Shown: one piece after another, positions 10,389 to 30,730 of the stretch
Numbering within the stretch: the first letter of the stretch is position 1
How the letters are laid out: each line of letters begins with the position of its first letter
DNA from: a virus
Strand: one strand, 5' to 3'
Length of the DNA stretch: 31,416 nucleotides
IMG/VR virus record: IMGVR_UViG_3300021962_000409
Coordinates: 1-31,416 of that record
Position numbers and translations under genes: made by a program
Notes under the pieces: model-generated
What the model saw: the letters and a program-made list of their open reading frames with translations, nothing else
Databases searched by the model: none
Told to the model about the DNA's origin: nothing

Positions 10389-10682
10389 GTGGGTCCAGAG
10401 TATTTTGCAATTGGTTTAACTGCCATTGTTTCGGCTGTAACAGGAGGTTCTTGGGTAGCCAATAAAATTCTGGACCGACAGCAAGAGCGGATCCAGCATG
10501 CTTTTGATTACACCAATTCCCAAAAACGTAGGATTGACATTTTGGAAGATCAAATCAATCGCATGCCAATGGAGTACGTTCTTAAAGTTGACTTCTTAAG
10601 GGAAATTCAAGAAATGCACGATAATTTCCGCGAAATTAACAATAAACTTGATAAGCTTATGGAAAAGCTTTTGTCAAAATGA
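10389..10682 (+). CDS. small membrane plus coiled-coil protein
   Basis: A 97-residue protein with a GTG start. One hydrophobic segment (about residues 5-28, YFAIGLTAIVSAVTGGSWVANK) is followed by a charged coiled coil (about 30-97). This one-helix plus coil plan occurs in some holins, antiholins and spanin-like or tail-chaperone proteins, but it lies far from the endolysin (27517), so a holin call would be weak. It overlaps the next ATG by four bases (ATGA). Function unknown; a membrane anchor is what the sequence shows. Confidence 0.65.
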   Translation: MGPEYFAIGLTAIVSAVTGGSWVANKILDRQQERIQHAFDYTNSQKRRIDILEDQINRMPMEYVLKVDFLREIQEMHDNFREINNKLDKLMEKLLSK

Positions 10683-10864
10683 ACAGCTACATTCTTGAGG
10701 TTGAAGAAGATGAAAACGGTGAACTGTATATTACATTTCCAGATGAAGTAATTGAAGAGCTGGGCTGGCAAGAAGGCGATATCTTAAATTGGGACGTTAA
10801 GGGCGAAGGGATTGTTTTATCTAAAGTCCATGATGCGTCTGGGTATGAAGTAATAGAAGAGTAG
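10679..10864 (+). CDS. AbrB/MazE-type fold small protein
   Basis: A 61-residue acidic protein. The central pattern (ELYITFPDEVIEELGWQEGD followed by an aromatic strand) matches the SpoVT-AbrB swapped-hairpin fold, in which '(hydrophobic)-P-x-E-(hydrophobic)2-x-L-G-W/(hydrophobic)-x-x-G-D' precedes a final strand. Such proteins usually bind DNA as dimers and regulate transcription. This one is strongly acidic, which is unusual for DNA binding, and similar acidic versions are known from cyanophages. It overlaps the upstream gene by ATGA and its stop forms a TAGAATAA motif. Role as a phage regulator is inference. Confidence 0.7.
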   Translation: MNSYILEVEEDENGELYITFPDEVIEELGWQEGDILNWDVKGEGIVLSKVHDASGYEVIEE

Positions 10865-11537: not shown

Positions 11538-13853
11538 ATGTCAATGGATGCCAAGTATCGTCTCAAAGAGATGGTCGATTCCTATCTTGAAAAAGATGGG
11601 TCAATGACCGTTGATACGGGCATCATTGCATCTCATGTGGCCCAGATGAAACTCTTTGGTATCCGCCAAGGAGTTGAATTTTTTCCTTCCCAGGACAACT
11701 TTGGTAATCAACGGAAAGATTTCATTGATCGGGTCCTGAAGTACAACAAGCTTGACACCAGGCTTGATTCAATTTGGGAATATTTCCTTTGCGATGGTAA
11801 AGGGCTGTTTTACATTCGTCCCACTAAATTTAGCTATCGTCTTTACTACTTCCGTGCTCACGAGTACCGCTCGTTCTATAACGTTGATGGTGAGCTGGAT
11901 GAAGTGGTAATCATCTACAGCTACAAAGTTCGCAAGGGCTTTGGCGCAACAGATGGTATTAACCTCGCCACTCTTGGAGCAGGTGGCGCAGCATTTGAGC
12001 AAGGTGCAAAACGCTACATCCGTTTAGCAATCAAATCAGACACCATTGAAGAAACTCATTCAGAAGGTGAACTTTCGTTTGAGACAACTAACTATTCAGC
12101 CCTTGGTAAAACAAAAACGTTTAAAAATACGCTTGGTTTTATTCCCTGTGTAGAGATCTTCAACAATCCAAAGGGCTTCTCTAACGAAGGTGTTGGTGAG
12201 TTTGATGGTATGGCTAATCACATCGTCATTCATGATGAGATGGTTCGTACCATGCGTAAGAACGTTCAGTTCTTTGGTAATCCAACTCTTCTCTCTTCAC
12301 GTCCCAAGAGTGACCTGATGGAGGCAGGTGGTGATACATCTGTTCAGCGTCCATCTATTGCTGCAAACTCTGGTTTCACTGGTCTTGGTGCGTTGAGTCA
12401 GTCACGCTTCAAGGCAGATCCCATCATGCGTGGTGTTGATGGTCAGCTCCGCGTGCCACGCATCATTGCAAACCTGGAACCAAATGACCGAGTTGGCTAC
12501 ATCGTTCCAGATGCCATCACGGGCGATCAAAATGCTTTTGCTCGTCAGTATCGAGAAGAGATTCGCACTGCTCTTGGTGGTGTTGATGAGCTTTCTATCT
12601 CTGCTGGTGTTACCGCAACTGAGTACAAATCTCTTTTTGGCCGCGTTTCCGCAACATCGAAAAAGAAAGCAAACGCTATCTACACCCACGGCATTTGCCG
12701 CTGCCTTGAATTGATTATTTATCAAGAAGAGCAGTTATTTAAAGACAGTCTTGCTCAGGCCGCAAGAATTGAAAAACCAATCTCTCCTTCCAAAGAAGCT
12801 CCAGCAGAAGAAGTTGCGTCCTACGAAGATGCGTTGAAGCAATACAACGAACAAGTCAAACAAATTATGGTGGCGTGTGTGGAGGCACAACAAATACCTC
12901 CCGGCGTCCAGGGTTTGATTCCAGATGGTGATGTCACTATGCTCTGGAGGTGGTTGGGACCTGTTTACGAAGATTCTACGCAAGACATTTTGAACAACTC
13001 CATTGTTGTTCGAAATCTTCAGGAATTAGGTGTTGATAGCATTGAAGCACTGAAATACCTCTTTCCGTCTAAGACGGATGAGGAACGAGCCGAGATGTTA
13101 TCTGGGTTCCCATTCAGGATGGTGAACGAGTTGCAGGGTGCATACTCTCAATTCGCAAAACTAGTGGGGGGCATGATGCAGACTCCTCACCCGCAAGCAC
13201 CGGATCTTCCGATGGCTGCGGATCCAAGATTGGATTTAACGCCATATCTGTATCGAACTTTAGAAGCCTTACAAAAGGAGATGAGTTATGCAGGACGCTA
13301 CCGTCCAATCGATCCCACAGACGAGCCCCGTACCAGCGGCGGTGGCTCCGAGCAGCTACGTGGCACCGGCACCAAGCAATTACCAAGCAGCTCCGGTGGC
13401 GTACCAAGCGGCAGCCCAGGGTTACCAGGCAACGACACCTCAGCCGAATATCAGTTACCAATCCGCCCCTACTCAGTACGCCCCCCAATCCCAACCGGAG
13501 GCACCGGCGGGGAATCCATGGGAATCGGCGTTCAACAAAGTGGTGAACCTGCTGAGCGCACCAGTTCAATCCCCGTTCCAGGGGCAACCATCAGCTCCGA
13601 CGACAGCGTATACCCCGGCCAATTACGGACTTCCCAGCGCCCAGCCTACGCTGAACTCGGCAGCGCAGATTTGGTCAACCAACCAGGACTTATCGCCCAG
13701 CTATTCCCAAACTTCCTCGAATCCTTCCTTGGCGGAAATCGCGGATTACCTGGATCTGAGCCAGGAAAGCCGTCAGGTGATCGACGCGTTCGGGGTGGAA
13801 GCTCCGGCGGTTCTAAACCAGTACGCTCTAAACCTGGAAGGAATGCTCGATAG
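11538..13853 (+). CDS. portal protein with overlapping C-terminal extension
   Basis: 771 residues. Residues 1-580 read as a portal: N-terminal helical domain, the beta-rich wing, a loop with an aspartate-rich stretch (SSRPKSDLMEAGGDTSVQRP), and a long helical stem/crown (IYQEEQLFKDSLAQAARIEK). The portal is the dodecameric ring at the packaging vertex and docks terminase. From about residue 585 the protein becomes Gly/Ser/Pro-rich and basic at its end (SKPVRSKPGRNAR), and this part (13288-13853) is also read in another frame by the next gene. Start ATG has a GAGAG-type ribosome site 6 nt upstream. Whether the tail is made in the particle is open. Confidence 0.9.
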   Translation: MSMDAKYRLKEMVDSYLEKDGSMTVDTGIIASHVAQMKLFGIRQGVEFFPSQDNFGNQRKDFIDRVLKYNKLDTRLDSIWEYFLCDGKGLFYIRPTKFSYRLYYFRAHEYRSFYNVDGELDEVVIIYSYKVRKGFGATDGINLATLGAGGAAFEQGAKRYIRLAIKSDTIEETHSEGELSFETTNYSALGKTKTFKNTLGFIPCVEIFNNPKGFSNEGVGEFDGMANHIVIHDEMVRTMRKNVQFFGNPTLLSSRPKSDLMEAGGDTSVQRPSIAANSGFTGLGALSQSRFKADPIMRGVDGQLRVPRIIANLEPNDRVGYIVPDAITGDQNAFARQYREEIRTALGGVDELSISAGVTATEYKSLFGRVSATSKKKANAIYTHGICRCLELIIYQEEQLFKDSLAQAARIEKPISPSKEAPAEEVASYEDALKQYNEQVKQIMVACVEAQQIPPGVQGLIPDGDVTMLWRWLGPVYEDSTQDILNNSIVVRNLQELGVDSIEALKYLFPSKTDEERAEMLSGFPFRMVNELQGAYSQFAKLVGGMMQTPHPQAPDLPMAADPRLDLTPYLYRTLEALQKEMSYAGRYRPIDPTDEPRTSGGGSEQLRGTGTKQLPSSSGGVPSGSPGLPGNDTSAEYQLPIRPYSVRPPIPTGGTGGESMGIGVQQSGEPAERTSSIPVPGATISSDDSVYPGQLRTSQRPAYAELGSADLVNQPGLIAQLFPNFLESFLGGNRGLPGSEPGKPSGDRRVRGGSSGGSKPVRSKPGRNAR

Positions 13854-14248: not shown

Positions 14249-14884
14249 ATGCGTGGCCCTCTTAAATACGGTGTACCTATTGCCGCTGGTTTAGCCACGG
14301 GTGGGTACGCCCTTTCTCAAGGTGAAGATCCAGGATCTGCCGCACTTGCTGCAGCAGCTGGTGGCCTTGGTGGAGCGGCTGGATTACTTGGCGCACGTGC
14401 TCTGGCTGGTAGATATGCAAAAGATGTTGCAGGTTTAGTTAATACCGGCAAAGAAGCCGCAGTTCGAAATTTAACTTCTGCATCTCAAAATATTTATCCA
14501 CCTCTCAAAACATCTGTTCGCACGGTATCCCCTGCTGAAGCTGCGGAAGCAGAAAAGATCAATAGGTTGCGTGCGCAGATGGCAGGGGAAAGCAAGCGTG
14601 CTGCTTTGCTTGGCGGAATGGCCGGTGCTATTCAAGGATTACCTCAAGCCACTGAAGCCGGTATGTATTCTGGACTTAAGAAAGGCTTAGGTGCTATCGC
14701 TGCCCCAGCTGGTGCTCTTGCTGCTGGTCTCGGCGGTGTAGCACTCGGTGCCATCCCTGGTGCCGCTGGTGTACCAGGATTCCAGCAAGGAATTGCCATT
14801 GACCCAGAATCCCCTGGGTCTAGCAATACGGCAAATGCCAAATATGGTGTAACTCCATACGCAACAACGATGCAGTACGTGTAA
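14249..14884 (+). CDS. glycine-zipper hydrophobic virion protein
   Basis: A 211-residue protein starting 5 nt after the previous stop. Two Ala/Gly-rich hydrophobic stretches, about residues 8-50 (GLATGGYALSQ, AAAAGGLGGAAGLLGA) and 147-175 (GALAAGLGGVALGAIPGAAG), flank a charged soluble middle. GxxxG spacing resembles oligomeric membrane helices. It sits between scaffold-like protein and capsid gene, a slot where particle-internal proteins are common. A C-terminal Tyr/Thr tail follows. No family is recognised. It may join the set at 2422, 2991 and 3908 as an infection-channel component (inferred). Confidence 0.75.
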   Translation: MRGPLKYGVPIAAGLATGGYALSQGEDPGSAALAAAAGGLGGAAGLLGARALAGRYAKDVAGLVNTGKEAAVRNLTSASQNIYPPLKTSVRTVSPAEAAEAEKINRLRAQMAGESKRAALLGGMAGAIQGLPQATEAGMYSGLKKGLGAIAAPAGALAAGLGGVALGAIPGAAGVPGFQQGIAIDPESPGSSNTANAKYGVTPYATTMQYV

Positions 14885-14990
14885 TAAATAAAATTACCGG
14901 CTGCTAAAATTTGTGTTAGATAAGACATATTAATGTCTGAATCTTTCACCCGATAAAAACACTTCCTGCGACACTGGAGGATAAAACAAA
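14884..14990 (+). promoter_or_regulatory. capsid gene leader: promoter-like, hairpin and strong RBS
   Basis: A 107-nt leader before the capsid gene. It contains an ATAAATAAA element (14884-14892), a short inverted repeat AGACAT-ATTA-ATGTCT (14923-14938), and at the end a strong Shine-Dalgarno GGAGG (14976-14980) placed 10 nt before the GTG at 14991. Strong SD sequences are rare in this window, which suggests the capsid gene is translated at high rate. The promoter part is inference. Confidence 0.5.
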
Positions 14991-16154
14991 GTGTTCATTG
15001 ATAACGACTTTCCAAAGATTTTAGGTGCGGAACTTTACCGTCCCCACCCTGCGTATATCGCAGAAATGGCAGTCGAGCCTGTGGTCGTTCACGACTTCAC
15101 TCGTCAGCCTGGCCAAACGGTGCAGCTCGACCGCTATAAGTTCTGGGGGACCCCTGGTACTAAGGACAGCCGTGAGCGTATTGCCGATCAGACCATCGGT
15201 ACCGCCAACAGCCGCAACATCACCAAAGAGAAGGTGCTTGTTGTGCTGAAGGAATACACTGGTCCTGCTGATCCGGGCGATCCGACCCAGCCATCGACCT
15301 TCAAGATTGCTCGTGAGACCCTGATCACGGCCCAGCGCCTTCTGCTGGACACGGGCAACCTCAACATGTTCCACCAGTCCATCGGTAGCCTGACGCTGCT
15401 CGATGACTATCGTCGTTGGCGCGACCGCGTGTTCATTGATGAACTCGCCAAAGCCGAAGCCAATGGTGCCGCTTCTAGCAGCCAAGGTGGTTACTACTTC
15501 GCTGGTGGCAAGACCAAGGATTCCTCTGGTCGCGTTGCTTACACCGCCGCTGAGTATGCCGCTCAAGTGCAGCAGTTCCAGGTGCGTACCGACCTGCTGG
15601 AAGTGGTGAAGGATCTGCGTAAGCGCAACGTGCCGACCTTCGCTGATGGTCTGTATCGTTGCATCTGCGATCCTACTTTCATGATGCACCTGCGTCGTGA
15701 TCCTGACTTCCGTGAGATCGCTCGCTACGCTGGTAATCCTGGTCAAGGCATGTACATGGGTAACCCCATGATGCCTAACAACGCCAGCTTCTACATGGGT
15801 CCCCAAGCTGGTCAAGGTTACTTCCTGGCCGGTGAGCCCGTGATGCCTACTGGCGTCCAGTTCGAAGGTGTGAAGTTCTTCGAGTCGACCAACTTCCCGA
15901 CCAAGAACGTGAGCGCAAGCTTCACCGATACTCCTTCCTACAGCAGCCAAGAAGTTGCTCAAGGTTACTTCTTCGGTCCTCAATCGATCGGCGTTGGTAT
16001 CGGCGGCCCGAACGCTCAGGTGCTGATCAATAACAACGACGACTTCAGCCGCTTCATCATCCTGATTTGGCAACTGTATGCAGGTTTCGAGATCTTGAAC
16101 AAGGACTTCGTGACCACCGCATTCAGCTTCCTGTCTGATGACGGCAGCATCTGA
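14991..16154 (+). CDS. major capsid protein, N4 gp56-like
   Basis: 387 residues from GTG, set by the GGAGG site. The body looks like the HK97-fold coat family that includes N4 gp56: N-terminal charged arm, central beta stretch, and near residues 219-240 the conserved-type segment GLYRCICDPTFMMHLRRDPDF, followed by a Gly/Met-rich loop (GNPGQGMYMGNPMM) and C-terminal beta strands. It is the main shell protein. Codon use is C/G-rich at third positions compared with neighbours, typical of a highly expressed gene. It lies between scaffold-like/portal genes and a decoration-like gene, as expected. Confidence 0.85.
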   Translation: MFIDNDFPKILGAELYRPHPAYIAEMAVEPVVVHDFTRQPGQTVQLDRYKFWGTPGTKDSRERIADQTIGTANSRNITKEKVLVVLKEYTGPADPGDPTQPSTFKIARETLITAQRLLLDTGNLNMFHQSIGSLTLLDDYRRWRDRVFIDELAKAEANGAASSSQGGYYFAGGKTKDSSGRVAYTAAEYAAQVQQFQVRTDLLEVVKDLRKRNVPTFADGLYRCICDPTFMMHLRRDPDFREIARYAGNPGQGMYMGNPMMPNNASFYMGPQAGQGYFLAGEPVMPTGVQFEGVKFFESTNFPTKNVSASFTDTPSYSSQEVAQGYFFGPQSIGVGIGGPNAQVLINNNDDFSRFIILIWQLYAGFEILNKDFVTTAFSFLSDDGSI

Positions 16155-23601: not shown

Positions 23602-23940
23602 ATGTTTTGCAACGAGCACGAGCCCCTCGCCCTGCTAGTTGAATTAACACCAAAACTTGCAAAAAAACGATTCAGAGAAAGTATATATCAGGCCTGGAAC
23701 CACAAGTGCGGATATTGTGGAGAAGCAGCAACAAGCCTGGATCATATTGTGCCCAGGTTTAAGTCTGGTTCTTCTAATCGACATAATTTAATCCCATGCT
23801 GTCGTCGTTGCAATGCTCATAAAGGATCAGAGGATATGAAAAATTGGTTTGAAAAACAATCTTTCTTTTCTCCCGAAACTCTTGGTAGGATTGAAGGCTG
23901 GGTCAAACAAGAATCAATTTTTATTTTTGGTGAGTGCTAA
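23602..23940 (+). CDS. HNH endonuclease
   Basis: 112 residues. A clear HNH fold: zinc pair CGYC (residues about 36-39), LDHIVPR (H and D of the first catalytic strand), a Ser/Asn loop, then NLIPCCRRCNAHKG with the central Asn and the second Cys pair. These enzymes nick or cut DNA; phages use them as homing nucleases or in packaging next to terminase. Here it stands between the HTH gene and the large repeat protein, away from terminase, so a free-standing homing-type nuclease is plausible. The stop overlaps the next ATG by one base (TAATG). Confidence 0.85.
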   Translation: MFCNEHEPLALLVELTPKLAKKRFRESIYQAWNHKCGYCGEAATSLDHIVPRFKSGSSNRHNLIPCCRRCNAHKGSEDMKNWFEKQSFFSPETLGRIEGWVKQESIFIFGEC

Positions 23941-26900
23941 TGCCTGTATTTGGTGATTACGTTGGGTCATACAAGGATCTTGTAGATGCATACAACGCAC
24001 AAAATCAAGATACGACTAATGCTCAAGGGCGCAGTGTCATTAATCCACTGCGTCAAAATCTATATCATGAACTCGCTGGAACACTAACAGACTTTCAAAA
24101 CGCAAGGGAAAACAACAAAAACTGGGAACATTACGTCTGGACAGGCGGTAGTTCTGTATGGAAACCTTCTGATGGTCCATCAGATCTTGATAATTACTGG
24201 AACTCAAACGCTGATTTAAGAAAAGCCTATAACAACGATAAAGCAGCTTGGGGTAAAGCTCATTACGAAAGCAATGGACAAAAAGAAAATAGAGAAGTTC
24301 CTTTTAATGGGTTAGGTACCGTTCTTTGGAACAGCCATCAATATATAGTACGCCATTCGCAACTGTATGGAAATAGTTATATTCCAAACGTCTTTCAGAA
24401 AGCGGATGGAAAAGTTGTTGCCGTAAATGGACCAGATGGCTGGGGTCAACAGCACTGGGAACAAAGTGGCCAAAATGAAACACGAATTCTTCCTGGAGCC
24501 AAGATAGGACTTAATGCTAGCGGATCTGCTTACATTGCAAATCCAAACCTCATTGGTGCGGGTGCAAAATCTACTTACGATTCTTTAGTTAATTTAATTA
24601 ATAACGCAAGCTCTGGAAACTATTCGGCTTTAGTTAGCAGTGTTGGTAAGACTTTAGATTCAACAGAATTAAATGATTTTATTAAGAACGCTGGTATTGA
24701 TGTAATTGAAGCTTCTTATACAACAAAAATTAGTCCATGGGATGGCAAAAAACAAGGTGCCCAACCTCCTTTTGGAGCATTTAATGCAAATTATTATGGA
24801 TCTTCCACAACAAGTGGAGCAAACGCACTGAAGGAATGGAAAAAAGCTCAATCAGCTCTTTCTTTAGGTGGCATCAGTATACCTGATCTTGACATCACAA
24901 AGCGGTACACACAAGATAGTTATTTGCACTGGCACTATACAACGCAAGGGAAAGCAGCTGGCGCTAGGGGGAACTCTCCACTTGCCGAAGAAACAACGGA
25001 AGCTTACAAATACACAGAAAAACTAACTGATTATGAAAAACAACTTTATCGTGATCAAGTTCTTGGGATTACTACTGATCCTTTAGGACAACAAAAAATT
25101 GTTATAGCAGCACCTCAATACGATGAGGAAGGTAATTTAATCAATGAAGGAGATGTTGATACGTTATTAGAAAAGACTTTTGCTCAAACTGTCTCAGGTG
25201 AAGATTTAAAAAAAGAAAATATGCTTGAAACATTCGCGCAAGATGTATTAAAAATGAGTATTGATCAGTTGAAAAAAGCAAAACTAATTGAATCAAATTT
25301 GTCAATGATGTCTCAACTACCCGGATATAACGAGATCATGAATATAAATACAACACTGGCAAATTCAATTATCGGAGACAGTGGCATTGGTGGTATCCTT
25401 AATTTAAGAGGAGCTGGAAATGAATACCAAAAAGAACTAGAAAAAAACCTCGGTGAACTTACAGGAGTAAGTTCTAATTCAACAATTTATAACTGGCAAA
25501 AATGGTTTGATGAAACGTTGTTAAAAAAATATGAAAATTACGAAATAGAAGGACGGGTTTTTTCCACTGATGAACTAAAAAGTTTGCAAAAAATTGCACA
25601 AGAAGACATCGATATTTATAACAAAGATAAAGCTTCCGTCAAGCCTATTTATTTAGAAATTGCTGAAAAGTATAAAGAAGGCACAAGAGTATTAAATGTT
25701 AATGATATTGAAGATTTTAAAAAAATAATGATGTATATCGATAAAGAGTCAAACCAAGCTTTTGTTAAAAGTTTTGTTGATGATTATCTTAAGCCACGAT
25801 TTGATCAATCTAAATCAATGGATGAGTTTGTTAGTTACTTAGATGTAAAAGAAGAAGAGCAAAACGTTTTTCAGTCTCAAACAACAATTAATAAAATAAA
25901 ACAAATTGCTGATTTAAGAACAAGAACATTTTTAGATTTAATGCAATCGTCAGAAAAAGCAATGTCAAGATTTGATCCTGCTTTTTACCTTGATCCGGTT
26001 ACTAACAATACCAAGCAAGTTGGTAGTACAAAGTTAGGTCAATATCAATACCAAAAAGAACTAATTGCAGCAGATTTTGAAAATGCAAAAAAAGGAATTG
26101 TAGGAAGCGACGGGATTGATTGGGCAACACAAGCATACATTTATGGTTATGAAGGGACATATAAAACAGATCCAAAAGTTTTTGCTAAATTGCATTATCA
26201 GGCAAAAGGAAGCACTGGAGCGGTAAAAGATCCAAGCACAGGAAAGTCTATTCTTTTAGATCCAGCACAAGACATCTTGCCATACGATGAGCTGGCACAA
26301 AAAATTAAAGACTTTGGCGTAGAGATGGCCGCAAGAAAAGAATTTTATGGTGGCGCTGGTTTCATGAAATTTGTAACACCTGAAGAATTTGCAGATGCAG
26401 TTTTAGGTTCTGTTAGCCCAGAAGAAAATAAAGAAGAGTGGGACAAAATACTACAATCAATTGGCTTGGAAGGCACAGACGCAACTATTGAACAAGTTAA
26501 AGAATATTTAATTGAACAACTAAGAACAGAAGAAGCAAAAAATATTCGTGAAAGTATCAAGTATTTAAACGAGAACCAAGAAGAATTAAACCAAAAAACA
26601 CTAGGAGTAAGTTACATTGAAAGACCTACAGATGTAAAAACAGAAACAGGAGAAACAACATTTTTGTATGATGTTTTTAAAAACGCTGGTTACGGCGGAA
26701 CAGAAGATGATTTTTATAATGAATTTTTTCCAGATGTGGACAGAACAGAGCAACAGGTGATTAGTAAACTCAGCTCAGGACAAGGTTTAGAGTCTTCTTT
26801 AGGAGATATGGACAATCCGTTTGCCGCTTTTGTAACTGTTGGTAGTTTGTTTGAAGATGATAGTAGTATTGGTGGAGCAGCTTTTATTAAAGACCCAGAA

Positions 26901-27038
26901 GAAGAGGAGCAAAAAGCCGCTTCACAATCTTCTTATTTTAAAATATTTGAAGATGAAGAGGAAGAGTTGCCGGAAAAAAGCGCTGCAGCAACTTCATTTT
27001 TAAAAGATTTTACTTCTTTATTTAAAGGATTTAATTGA
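23940..27038 (+). CDS. 1032-aa repeat virion protein (HYxxxGxxExR repeats)
   Basis: The largest gene. The ATG at 23940 shares a base with the HNH stop; a GTG at 23934 is inside that gene and less likely. The N-terminal third has degenerate repeats with the pattern 'W-G-x-x-H-Y/W-x3-G-x2-E-x-R': AAWGKAHYESNGQKENR (102-118), DGWGQQHWEQSGQNETR (166-182), YLHWHYTTQGKAAGAR (328-343), and a weak copy near 740 (FAKLHYQAKG). Similar repeats occur in cyanobacterial secreted proteins and cyanophage tail proteins. The middle is long, charged and helical; the C-terminus is acidic. It is probably a tail or ejection-type particle protein, inferred from size and context. Confidence 0.78.
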   Translation: MPVFGDYVGSYKDLVDAYNAQNQDTTNAQGRSVINPLRQNLYHELAGTLTDFQNARENNKNWEHYVWTGGSSVWKPSDGPSDLDNYWNSNADLRKAYNNDKAAWGKAHYESNGQKENREVPFNGLGTVLWNSHQYIVRHSQLYGNSYIPNVFQKADGKVVAVNGPDGWGQQHWEQSGQNETRILPGAKIGLNASGSAYIANPNLIGAGAKSTYDSLVNLINNASSGNYSALVSSVGKTLDSTELNDFIKNAGIDVIEASYTTKISPWDGKKQGAQPPFGAFNANYYGSSTTSGANALKEWKKAQSALSLGGISIPDLDITKRYTQDSYLHWHYTTQGKAAGARGNSPLAEETTEAYKYTEKLTDYEKQLYRDQVLGITTDPLGQQKIVIAAPQYDEEGNLINEGDVDTLLEKTFAQTVSGEDLKKENMLETFAQDVLKMSIDQLKKAKLIESNLSMMSQLPGYNEIMNINTTLANSIIGDSGIGGILNLRGAGNEYQKELEKNLGELTGVSSNSTIYNWQKWFDETLLKKYENYEIEGRVFSTDELKSLQKIAQEDIDIYNKDKASVKPIYLEIAEKYKEGTRVLNVNDIEDFKKIMMYIDKESNQAFVKSFVDDYLKPRFDQSKSMDEFVSYLDVKEEEQNVFQSQTTINKIKQIADLRTRTFLDLMQSSEKAMSRFDPAFYLDPVTNNTKQVGSTKLGQYQYQKELIAADFENAKKGIVGSDGIDWATQAYIYGYEGTYKTDPKVFAKLHYQAKGSTGAVKDPSTGKSILLDPAQDILPYDELAQKIKDFGVEMAARKEFYGGAGFMKFVTPEEFADAVLGSVSPEENKEEWDKILQSIGLEGTDATIEQVKEYLIEQLRTEEAKNIRESIKYLNENQEELNQKTLGVSYIERPTDVKTETGETTFLYDVFKNAGYGGTEDDFYNEFFPDVDRTEQQVISKLSSGQGLESSLGDMDNPFAAFVTVGSLFEDDSSIGGAAFIKDPEEEEQKAASQSSYFKIFEDEEEELPEKSAAATSFLKDFTSLFKGFN

Positions 27039-27481: not shown

Positions 27482-27494
27482 TTTATGTATGATT

Positions 27495-27516
27495 GGAGAT
27501 ATTGTTAAATATCTCC
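27495..27516 (+). other. perfect 9-bp hairpin directly before the endolysin start
   Basis: GGAGATATT (27495-27503), loop GTTA, AATATCTCC (27508-27516): the stem is perfect and ends on the base before the ATG at 27517. In RNA it would block the ribosome at the endolysin start unless opened, or place the upstream sequence close to the start. It also contains the only GGAG near the gene. In phage T4, the lysozyme gene e is silenced early by a hairpin at its ribosome site, a known parallel. Confidence 0.6.
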
Positions 27517-28179
27517 ATGAAGGATTATCGTTCTGCCGTTGAGCTAATTCGTAAATACGAAGGCTTTAACGAGAAGGCGTACCCCGATCCCGCGACCGGA
27601 GGTGCGCCTTTTACTTTTGGTTTTGGTAGTCAGTATTACCCAGATGGTAGTCCTGTACTTAAGAACCATTGCTGCACAGAACAAAAAGCACTGGAGTACC
27701 TGCTCCATGAATTAGAAGTCATCGATGCTCTCTTGGAGAAAGAGAATGTAAAGCTTGACTCCTACATGAACCAGGCGCTGCTTTCCTTTATTCATTCCGT
27801 TGGCTGGGAACCATTTCGTTACAGCGAGATTCTGGATGACATTGAAAACGAGGAATGGTCAGCAGTCGTGGATTGCATGATGCAATGGATCTTTGACCAT
27901 GAGGGCAATGCAACAGGAGGTCTCCTGAACCGTCGCAAGGAAGAGATCAGCCTCTTTCTGTACGATATCAATCCAATCCAGGAGTGCTCCCCCAACATCC
28001 TCCTGAAGGCGTTCAGGAACTACACTGGCTCCCAGCAGGAGATTGATGCCATCAAAGATCTAGAGGCACTGATCAATCCGTATGTTCTTACATCCTTTGC
28101 AAATTCTTTTAATTTAGATCGCACCAGCTGGATTGATGACCTCCTGGAGCAGGACGGATTGATTAATGCTTGGTCGTAG
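27517..28179 (+). CDS. endolysin, GH24 lysozyme
   Basis: 220 residues from the ATG at 27517; an earlier TTG at 27493 is in frame but lies before the hairpin. IRKYEGFNEKAYPDPATGGA gives the GH24 catalytic set: Glu15, Asp24 and Thr33 (in FTFGFG), matching T4 lysozyme E11, D20 and T26 in order and spacing. A helical catalytic domain follows with LLSFIHSVGW near residue 87. The C-terminal 70 residues (NPIQECSPNIL onward) have no known domain and may bind the wall. No signal peptide, so export needs a holin or the hairpin-timed pathway. The stop forms a TAGAATAA motif. The NblA-like gene follows in 18 nt. Confidence 0.85.
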   Translation: MKDYRSAVELIRKYEGFNEKAYPDPATGGAPFTFGFGSQYYPDGSPVLKNHCCTEQKALEYLLHELEVIDALLEKENVKLDSYMNQALLSFIHSVGWEPFRYSEILDDIENEEWSAVVDCMMQWIFDHEGNATGGLLNRRKEEISLFLYDINPIQECSPNILLKAFRNYTGSQQEIDAIKDLEALINPYVLTSFANSFNLDRTSWIDDLLEQDGLINAWS

Positions 28180-28197
28180 AATAAACTAATAGAAATC

Positions 28198-28494
28198 GTG
28201 GATGCCATGGAAAAGTCGGTGGAATCGCGGCAGTTTGAGCTTCCTCTCGAACTTCAGTTCTCCATGCGTAGGGCTGAACTAGAAGCTCAAGAAATGACAT
28301 GGGAGCAGCTATATGCCGCACTGCTGAACTTATACCATCAGCGGCTGATGGAATGGTTTGCGATTAAGGACATCTTGGCCGACGAGAACATTTCTATCGA
28401 CTTTGATATTCCCACCGATCTAGAATTAGCAGAACTCGCCGCCGCATTTATTTGCGACGACGAGGATGATGATGACGAGCTTCAACCGTTTTGA
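28198..28494 (+). CDS. nblA: NblA-like phycobilisome degradation protein
   Basis: 98 residues from GTG at 28198; ATG at 28207 is an equally possible start. Residues about 13-60 align without gaps by eye with cyanobacterial NblA: E-L-x-L-E-x-Q-F-S-M-R core (14-24), Q-E-M-T-x-E-Q (31-37), LLNLYHQ (42-48) and a K-x-x-L end (57-60), with about 19 of 49 positions identical to the sequence I remember for Anabaena NblA. NblA binds phycobiliproteins and brings them to ClpC for digestion. An extra acidic tail (DDEDDDDE, near 87-94) follows, absent from normal NblA of 55-65 residues. It overlaps the convergent DUF3310 gene by 13 nt. Good family call, activity inferred. Confidence 0.75.
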   Translation: MDAMEKSVESRQFELPLELQFSMRRAELEAQEMTWEQLYAALLNLYHQRLMEWFAIKDILADENISIDFDIPTDLELAELAAAFICDDEDDDDELQPF

Positions 28495-28751
28495 GCTTCG
28501 TCAAGTTGAATTAAACGCTCCAAGTACCACTGCGCTTTCTTAAGCGACTCGGTGGAGCCTTTCATGCGTTCGCGCCAAATATATTTAGCGATATTGCCTT
28601 TGAGATAACCACGATATTCATCGTTGGTCAGTTGTGCTTCTAAAGCTTCAATACATTCGATGCCGCCATCGGTGTAATGAGAAGGGTGGTTAACGGTATC
28701 TGGAACAATAACCGGAGCTTCTTCTTTTACTGCCCAGGGTACAGGGCACAC
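28482..28751 (-). CDS. DUF3310 family protein
   Basis: 89 residues with the DUF3310 core NHPSHYTDGGIECIE, then GNIAKYIWRERMKG, and KKAQWYLERL. This domain is found in many phages; function is not firmly known, though it is often discussed as nucleotide-metabolism linked. Start choice: GTG at 28751 has an AAGGA 5 nt upstream and lies 18 nt after the neighbour's stop; an ATG at 28964 would add 71 low-complexity residues overlapping the upstream gene by 196 nt, and is less likely. The + strand NblA-like gene ends 13 nt inside its 3' end. Confidence 0.75.
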   Translation of the reverse strand: MCPVPWAVKEEAPVIVPDTVNHPSHYTDGGIECIEALEAQLTNDEYRGYLKGNIAKYIWRERMKGSTESLKKAQWYLERLIQLDEAQNG

Positions 28752-28768
28752 ACCATCCTTACATTCAA

Positions 28769-29122
28769 TCAGCGCATCAGGCCCCGGCGTTTGGCTGACA
28801 GCATTTTCTCCTCCTCTTCCGGTCCTTCCAATTCCAGAATCAGTGTCTTTGGTTTTGGAGATGCCCCCATTGCTAACCCCTGTTCCATCGATGGGATCAA
28901 ACCAGTCGTTCCAGGTCGTTGCCCCTCGAGATTCAATGGATTCCGCTCCAGCCCTTGCTCGCATAAAGTCAACCCTCGGTTGTACATATCATATAAGGGT
29001 ACATCATTTTCTTCATTATCGAGCGGCGCACCAAAATCTTCTTCCGTCAAACAACGGCACTTCAACTCGTCTTGAACAAAGCTATCTAAGAAACCGGCTG
29101 CGGTATGCATTGATATAGACAT
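28769..29122 (-). CDS. unknown acidic protein
   Basis: 117 residues, polar and Glu/Leu-rich (EEEEKML tail, then a basic KRRGLMR end). It starts ATG at 29122 behind a divergent promoter region with a GATAAT-like box. No domain recognised. It precedes DUF3310 in the same leftward operon with a gap of 17 nt, so it may share its role. Existence fairly sure. Confidence 0.62.
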   Translation of the reverse strand: MSISMHTAAGFLDSFVQDELKCRCLTEEDFGAPLDNEENDVPLYDMYNRGLTLCEQGLERNPLNLEGQRPGTTGLIPSMEQGLAMGASPKPKTLILELEGPEEEEKMLSAKRRGLMR

Positions 29123-30142: not shown

Positions 30143-30730
30143 TCAAGTGAGAATGCGACCTTTTTCCGAGTAAATATCGATGAAACGTTCAGTCGCAGAC
30201 GCGACGCGATCCTGGGGCTGAAGGTACACTAAAAATGATGTGCAGGTTTTATGACTTGACACTCCACTGCTGGTATTTTTCTTTAAAGTAGGTGCCGTTT
30301 TTAAAATACAAATCGGGAAATCAAAGATCCGCTGATCGTACCGGAACATGTCTGGACAGTTTGAAAAGTAAAGACCCTGCTCAATCTCTCCAGCAAGCCA
30401 GGATTTGTAAAGTTTCTCAAACCAGACAGCATGAGATGAACGCAAAGTCTTAGATGTTGCCCTGGTCATCTTCCACCGTTGGTTCTTTGCCTCCCAGAAG
30501 TAAGCACCACTAGGAGGAAATAGATAGACACGGCCAAACCATTGCTGACAATTCAAGCCATCTTGCGTTGGCGTGTAGAAATGCTCTGCCTCTACAAAAG
30601 AATTTGCCGTAATTGAGCTTGCAACATCAAGTTGAATACCATCAAGAAGAGCATGTGCCGCAGATACCAGATCGTAATTGGTAATCAGTTCAAGATCTTC
30701 TTTTTTGTATCCGGGGGATGTAATGCTCAT
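30143..30730 (-). CDS. degenerate phage Dam-like methyltransferase
   Basis: 195 residues. LDVAS (34-38), the AN...E segment, DGLNCQQWFGRVYLFPPSG (57-75) and the following helix mirror the phage N6-adenine methyltransferase (Dam-type) layout, in which 'LDaAAs...N...DGL...W.g.vw.NPPYG' carries the catalytic NPPY. Here the motif reads FPPS (71-74), so catalytic residues Asn and Tyr are missing. It may be an inactive DNA-binding relative or have a different chemistry. It sits between dCTP deaminase and an unknown gene, overlapping the latter by ATGA. Family call moderate, activity doubtful. Confidence 0.6.
   Translation of the reverse strand: MSITSPGYKKEDLELITNYDLVSAAHALLDGIQLDVASSITANSFVEAEHFYTPTQDGLNCQQWFGRVYLFPPSGAYFWEAKNQRWKMTRATSKTLRSSHAVWFEKLYKSWLAGEIEQGLYFSNCPDMFRYDQRIFDFPICILKTAPTLKKNTSSGVSSHKTCTSFLVYLQPQDRVASATERFIDIYSEKGRILT

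Follow-up and report, generated by a model that had tools for sequence, protein, structure and literature searches.

A divergent NblA-family protein with an acidic, SSB-tip-like tail in S-EIV1-like cyanophages

The stretch of viral DNA analysed here (hereafter the window; 31,416 nucleotides, IMG/VR record IMGVR_UViG_3300021962_000409) comes from an S-EIV1-like Synechococcus phage and covers part of its genome. An initial annotation had placed an NblA-like gene beside the endolysin, and the open reading frame (ORF) at 28198-28494 on the forward strand is present as it described. The GTG at 28198 would add three residues, and the reading frame is open there only in near relatives. As the alignment of homologues begins at the ATG at 28207, the most likely start, the gene (28207-28494, +) probably encodes a protein of 95 rather than 98 amino acids. 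Directly upstream lies a lysozyme-type endolysin gene (27493-28179, +; Pfam Phage_lysozyme), and a lysozyme gene is found in this place in all loci that extend far enough (229/229). Because the NblA-like gene starts only 27 bases past the lysozyme stop, it is probably expressed in the late phase of infection. On its other side, a convergent DUF3310 gene (28482-28964, -) overlaps its last 13 bases, and in every testable locus (223/223) a DUF3310 gene likewise lies downstream in convergent orientation. Over the core of the NblA-like protein, pN/pS is 0.167 (n = 128 distinct nucleotide sequences), indicating a real gene under selection at the protein level.

Several neighbouring features deserve mention in their own right. 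The DUF3310 gene probably starts further in than its 160-aa ORF suggests, since the DUF3310 gene of S-EIV1 encodes only 79 aa. The N-terminal part of this 160-aa ORF is overlapped in another frame by a 117-aa ORF (28769-29122, -), which has a position like that of S-EIV1 74488-74850 and a similar C-terminal end. A 195-aa ORF (30143-30730, -) that weakly matches DNA methyltransferases in PHROGs (E 8.5e-7) adjoins the dCTP deaminase gene, and S-EIV1 has the same order. Further upstream in the window, a 1034-aa ORF of no clear family (23934-27038, +), with a G+C content down to 30% compared with ~44% around it, corresponds in position to the 901-aa protein AHV82241.1 of S-EIV1. Shortly past the terminase gene, a 61-aa MazE/AbrB-type DNA-binding protein is encoded (10679-10864, +; Pfam MazE_antitoxin, 30.7 bits), with no evident toxin gene adjoining.

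The best annotated relative of the NblA-like protein is AHV82245.1 of Synechococcus phage S-EIV1 (68% identity over residues 4-81), annotated as 'hypothetical protein' and set in the same gene order as in the window. The NblA-like gene had been taken as the best host evidence in the window; this counterpart, 68% identical and in the same setting in a Synechococcus phage, is better evidence. An S-EIV1-like prophage has been described from S. elongatus UTEX 3055 (PMC9239245). Besides S-EIV1, scans of IMG/VR yielded 249 loci with the gene, encoding 81 distinct proteins; some contigs among these loci are counted twice with different flanks, so separate contigs are fewer. At least 523 relatives of the protein were found in one scan of viral contigs. 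As all these counts come from one phage lineage, the tail described below was probably acquired once rather than many times. Run against 84,980 species genomes of bacteria and archaea, the phage profile retrieved no relative, and hence no host copy with the tail. Previous work lists hli and ptoX for the S-EIV1 genus, and nblA is absent from that genus entry (Nishimura 2017, PMC5332604, Table 2), although it may have been noticed earlier elsewhere. Elsewhere in the S-EIV1 genome, an unannotated 92-aa ORF (14786-15064, +) with homologues in five relatives ends in GDDTPF, an ending found in S-EIV1 only. It is overlaid in other frames by the annotated genes 14686-14889 and 15000-15209, and the S-EIV1 record may be misannotated in this region.

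The C-terminus of the NblA-like protein consists of an acidic run, DDEDDDDE (28456-28479, +), which differs in length and sequence among relatives, and a terminal Pro-Phe (28486-28491, +). The acidic run had been noted as new to the NblA family, and none is found in our set of 82 host NblAs (54-72 aa), drawn from 194 cyanobacterial genomes and a few Nostocales. That part of the initial description of the tail stands; the conserved Pro-Phe and a predicted third helix had been missed. Pro-Phe ends 75 of the 81 distinct proteins, the six exceptions ending in REFSVF (n = 2) or LTPFFG (n = 4). Constraint within the gene is strongest at the last two codons (pN/pS 0.083), although synonymous change there is free: each of the four Pro codons and of the two Phe codons is used at the tip somewhere in the family. 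The preceding six codons are loosely constrained (pN/pS 0.469). The dipeptide might be a by-product of overlapping the convergent DUF3310 gene, which in 146 of the loci with a Pro-Phe end extends over these two codons. However, Pro-Phe is retained in 96 loci where the two genes overlap little or not at all, and together with the codon variety this rules out the overlap as the cause of the conservation across the lineage as a whole and makes a by-product exceedingly improbable.

A conserved Pro-Phe end is otherwise a mark of the single-stranded DNA-binding protein (SSB) in these phages. Among the ends of 741 long ORFs in the loci, only six are Pro-Phe, and five of these six are SSBs. When all ORFs with a Pro-Phe end and a length of 50 aa or more were compared across S-EIV1 and seven near-complete relatives, two families were found to conserve this end, SSB in 8/8 genomes and the NblA-like protein in 7/8; the SSBs of S-EIV1 and 17 relatives all have it. 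Because only these two families conserve the Pro-Phe end, the tail resembles the C-terminal tip of SSB rather than a ClpC contact. The tip of Escherichia coli SSB is DDDIPF (PMC5872125), several cyanobacterial SSBs end in DEVPF, DDIPF, DEIPF, or EEVPF, and the SSB-tip pockets of many replication and repair proteins take the terminal Phe and acidic residues (PMC5872125, PMC10143822). In searches against Pfam and NCBIfam the NblA-like protein has no SSB match, while the separate SSB gene of the lineage does match. We also tested for co-variation of the two tips and rejected it, as one phage (L341) has TPFFG on the NblA-like protein and KEPF on its SSB. In another genome (L438), a 131-aa ORF (12636-13031, +) has an SSB-tip-like end, TLEEIPF, that is not kept in the homologues of three other genomes.

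Judged by profile and alignment evidence, the phage protein is a member of the NblA family, though much diverged. The window protein matches Pfam NblA (PF04485, positions 1-47; 28237-28377, +) with 26.6 bits against a cut-off of 25, and in hhalign the phage and host NblA profiles align over 53 ungapped columns (probability 95.5%, E 1.5e-8), the latter bearing out the gap-free core alignment first proposed. Of 48 distinct cores, 43 match the Pfam profile with an E-value no higher than 0.05 and the other five do not; the S-EIV1 copy is under the cut-off (16.3 bits, E 0.013). The host NblA profile matches each of the 45 phage proteins tried with it, and 57 host NblAs are in turn matched by the phage profile. 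Applied to 12,748 ORFs from the viral loci, the host profile gave 85 matches, all to the NblA-like phage family, and zero when the same ORFs were reversed as a specificity control. Searches of PHROGs and NCBIfam returned no family for the protein. With a Nostoc-type NblA as the tblastn query no phage was found, and other host NblAs as queries reached only Microcystis and Planktothrix phages and did not retrieve the marine podovirus or S-TIM5 NblAs.

The predicted structure is consistent with this assignment. AlphaFold models the core as a helix-loop-helix monomer (AF2, mean pLDDT 88), as expected for NblA, with helix 1 at residues 14-28 (28246-28290, +) and helix 2 at residues 32-59 (28300-28383, +); in this monomer model the helix pair agrees with the NblA fold that the initial annotation anticipated. 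A third helix, absent from host NblA, is predicted with low to middling confidence at residues 71-86 (28417-28464, +), after a conserved FD(I/V)PT.LEL segment and before the acidic run. Foldseek searches, run both with the whole model and with just its core, retrieved no NblA chain from the PDB, the ~50-residue hairpin being near the limit of the tool, and a fold search of BFVD gave only weak matches.

Alternatively, the protein could be a small helical component of the replication or lysis module that is no adaptor at all, its likeness to NblA being distant or convergent and its tip binding the replication enzymes of the phage. The acidic tail of T7 gp2.5 binds that phage's own replication enzymes, the S-EIV1-like phage encodes its own DNA polymerase and primase, dCTP deaminase and DUF3310 genes adjoin, and the distant members of the family score weakly against NblA. 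Yet the NblA profile matches are specific over a background of zero, the motif is conserved without gaps, and the gene follows the lysozyme gene at the end of a forward-strand module, so that we consider a non-adaptor role unlikely.

The divergence from host NblA is unevenly spread over the core. According to PMC4103541 (citing Karradt 2008 and Bienert 2006), NblA contacts ClpC through a conserved motif close to its N terminus and phycobiliproteins close to its C terminus. The phage motif LPLELQFSMR (28240-28269, +), the counterpart of LSLEQQFSIR in Anabaena NblA at the reported ClpC-contact end, is retained. Over columns 7-16, phage-host agreement is 0.51 compared with 0.67 among hosts, whereas over columns 44-56 it falls to 0.13 compared with 0.36. 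The host R/K44 is replaced by E in all 56 distinct phage cores examined (E49 in the window protein), and K53 by A, E, D, or Q in 56/56 (A58). In host NblAs position 53 is K or R in 70 of 82, common without being universal, so its loss is no bar to family membership. These agreement values and the loss of R44 and K53 show that the end reported to contact ClpC has been kept and the end reported to contact the phycobilisome rewritten, the rewritten part of the window protein being the C-terminal half of helix 2. The proposal that the tail may replace the ClpC contact does not fit this pattern, as the N-terminal motif is intact and the phycobilisome end is the altered one.

Such a pattern could mark a retargeted adaptor, which would keep ClpC recruitment, lose its phycobilisome end, and use its tip to capture SSB-interacting host proteins for degradation or to block their pockets; RecO, RecQ, PriA, RecG, primase, or nucleases are suggested captives. 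The intact N-terminal motif, the conserved SSB-like tip, and the absence of R44 and K53 from every distinct core argue for it, in contrast to the NblAs of Planktothrix phage PaV-LD and Microcystis phage MaMV-DC, which keep basic residues at both positions. Bienert 2006 reportedly linked K53 to phycobilisome binding. On the other hand, the tip is imperfectly invariant, and other surfaces of the adaptor may bind phycobilisomes. We regard retargeting in this form as unlikely.

A simpler alternative is a plain phage NblA that promotes phycobilisome degradation, with a tail that does no more than adjust solubility, turnover, or electrostatics. Expression of other phage NblAs in cyanobacteria leads to loss of pigment (see the review PMC9602691), and Synechococcus is among the hosts of the S-EIV1-like lineage. 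This explanation is possible but doubtful, as the phycobilisome end is rewritten and constraint on the gene peaks at its last two codons, something not required of a loose electrostatic tail.

The reading that we prefer, while giving it only about an even chance, is that a divergent NblA-family protein has become fixed in S-EIV1-like cyanophages as a ClpC adaptor with an SSB-pocket docking tail. Its NblA half would hold the host ClpC protease in an adaptor role, and the tail would form a second docking element, seating in pockets that normally take the SSB tip. By family precedent the phycobilisome would be the single likeliest cargo, with a probability that we put a little short of even; its degradation by this protein is possible, even with two basic residues at the phycobilisome end lost. 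Proteins that bind SSB, captured by the tip for Clp, are an unlikely second candidate, and autoregulation or a non-adaptor role makes up the remainder of our estimates. Full redirection of the adaptor from light harvesting to DNA metabolism, with SSB-docking host proteins either sent to Clp or barred from SSB, seems to us rather unlikely; if true, the retargeted set would comprise enzymes of replication restart and recombination as well as nucleases. Against the preferred reading of a ClpC adaptor with a docking tail stand the five of 48 cores that lack an NblA match at E 0.05 and the S-EIV1 copy below the cut-off, the six of 81 proteins without the exact tip, and the phage with LTPFFG that keeps a Pro-Phe SSB.

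Phage NblA has hitherto been viewed as a copy of a host light-harvesting switch. In a lineage this common (at least 523 relatives), one end of the adaptor has been kept, the other rewritten, and a tip of the kind used in DNA metabolism added, which bears on whether phages retarget Clp adaptors. Our result also names a previously unannotated, testable gene in S-EIV1-like phages.

Comparison with known systems shows both parts of the protein to have counterparts. With NblA of Anabaena sp. PCC 7120 (PDB 1ojh) it shares the L.LE.QF..R motif, the M(S/T) turn, and the predicted helix pair; unlike cyanobacterial NblA, which at 54-72 aa has no acidic tail, it adds the predicted third helix, the acidic run, and Pro-Phe. 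Phages Ma-LMM01, MaMV-DC, and PaV-LD likewise carry NblA homologues, although those of PaV-LD and MaMV-DC (54 and 65 aa, respectively) are tail-free and lie in other gene contexts than the S-EIV1-like copy. Like the E. coli SSB tip, the tail is a disordered acidic run ending in Pro-Phe, but it sits on an NblA-type hairpin without an OB fold, and most members have Q, L, A, S, or T ahead of the Pro, where E. coli SSB has Ile. Also close to the window are S-EIV1 itself, whose record carries the gene (AHV82245.1) without the NblA annotation that we propose, and the 249 IMG/VR loci, all with the same gene, the same neighbours, and the same plan of the tail.
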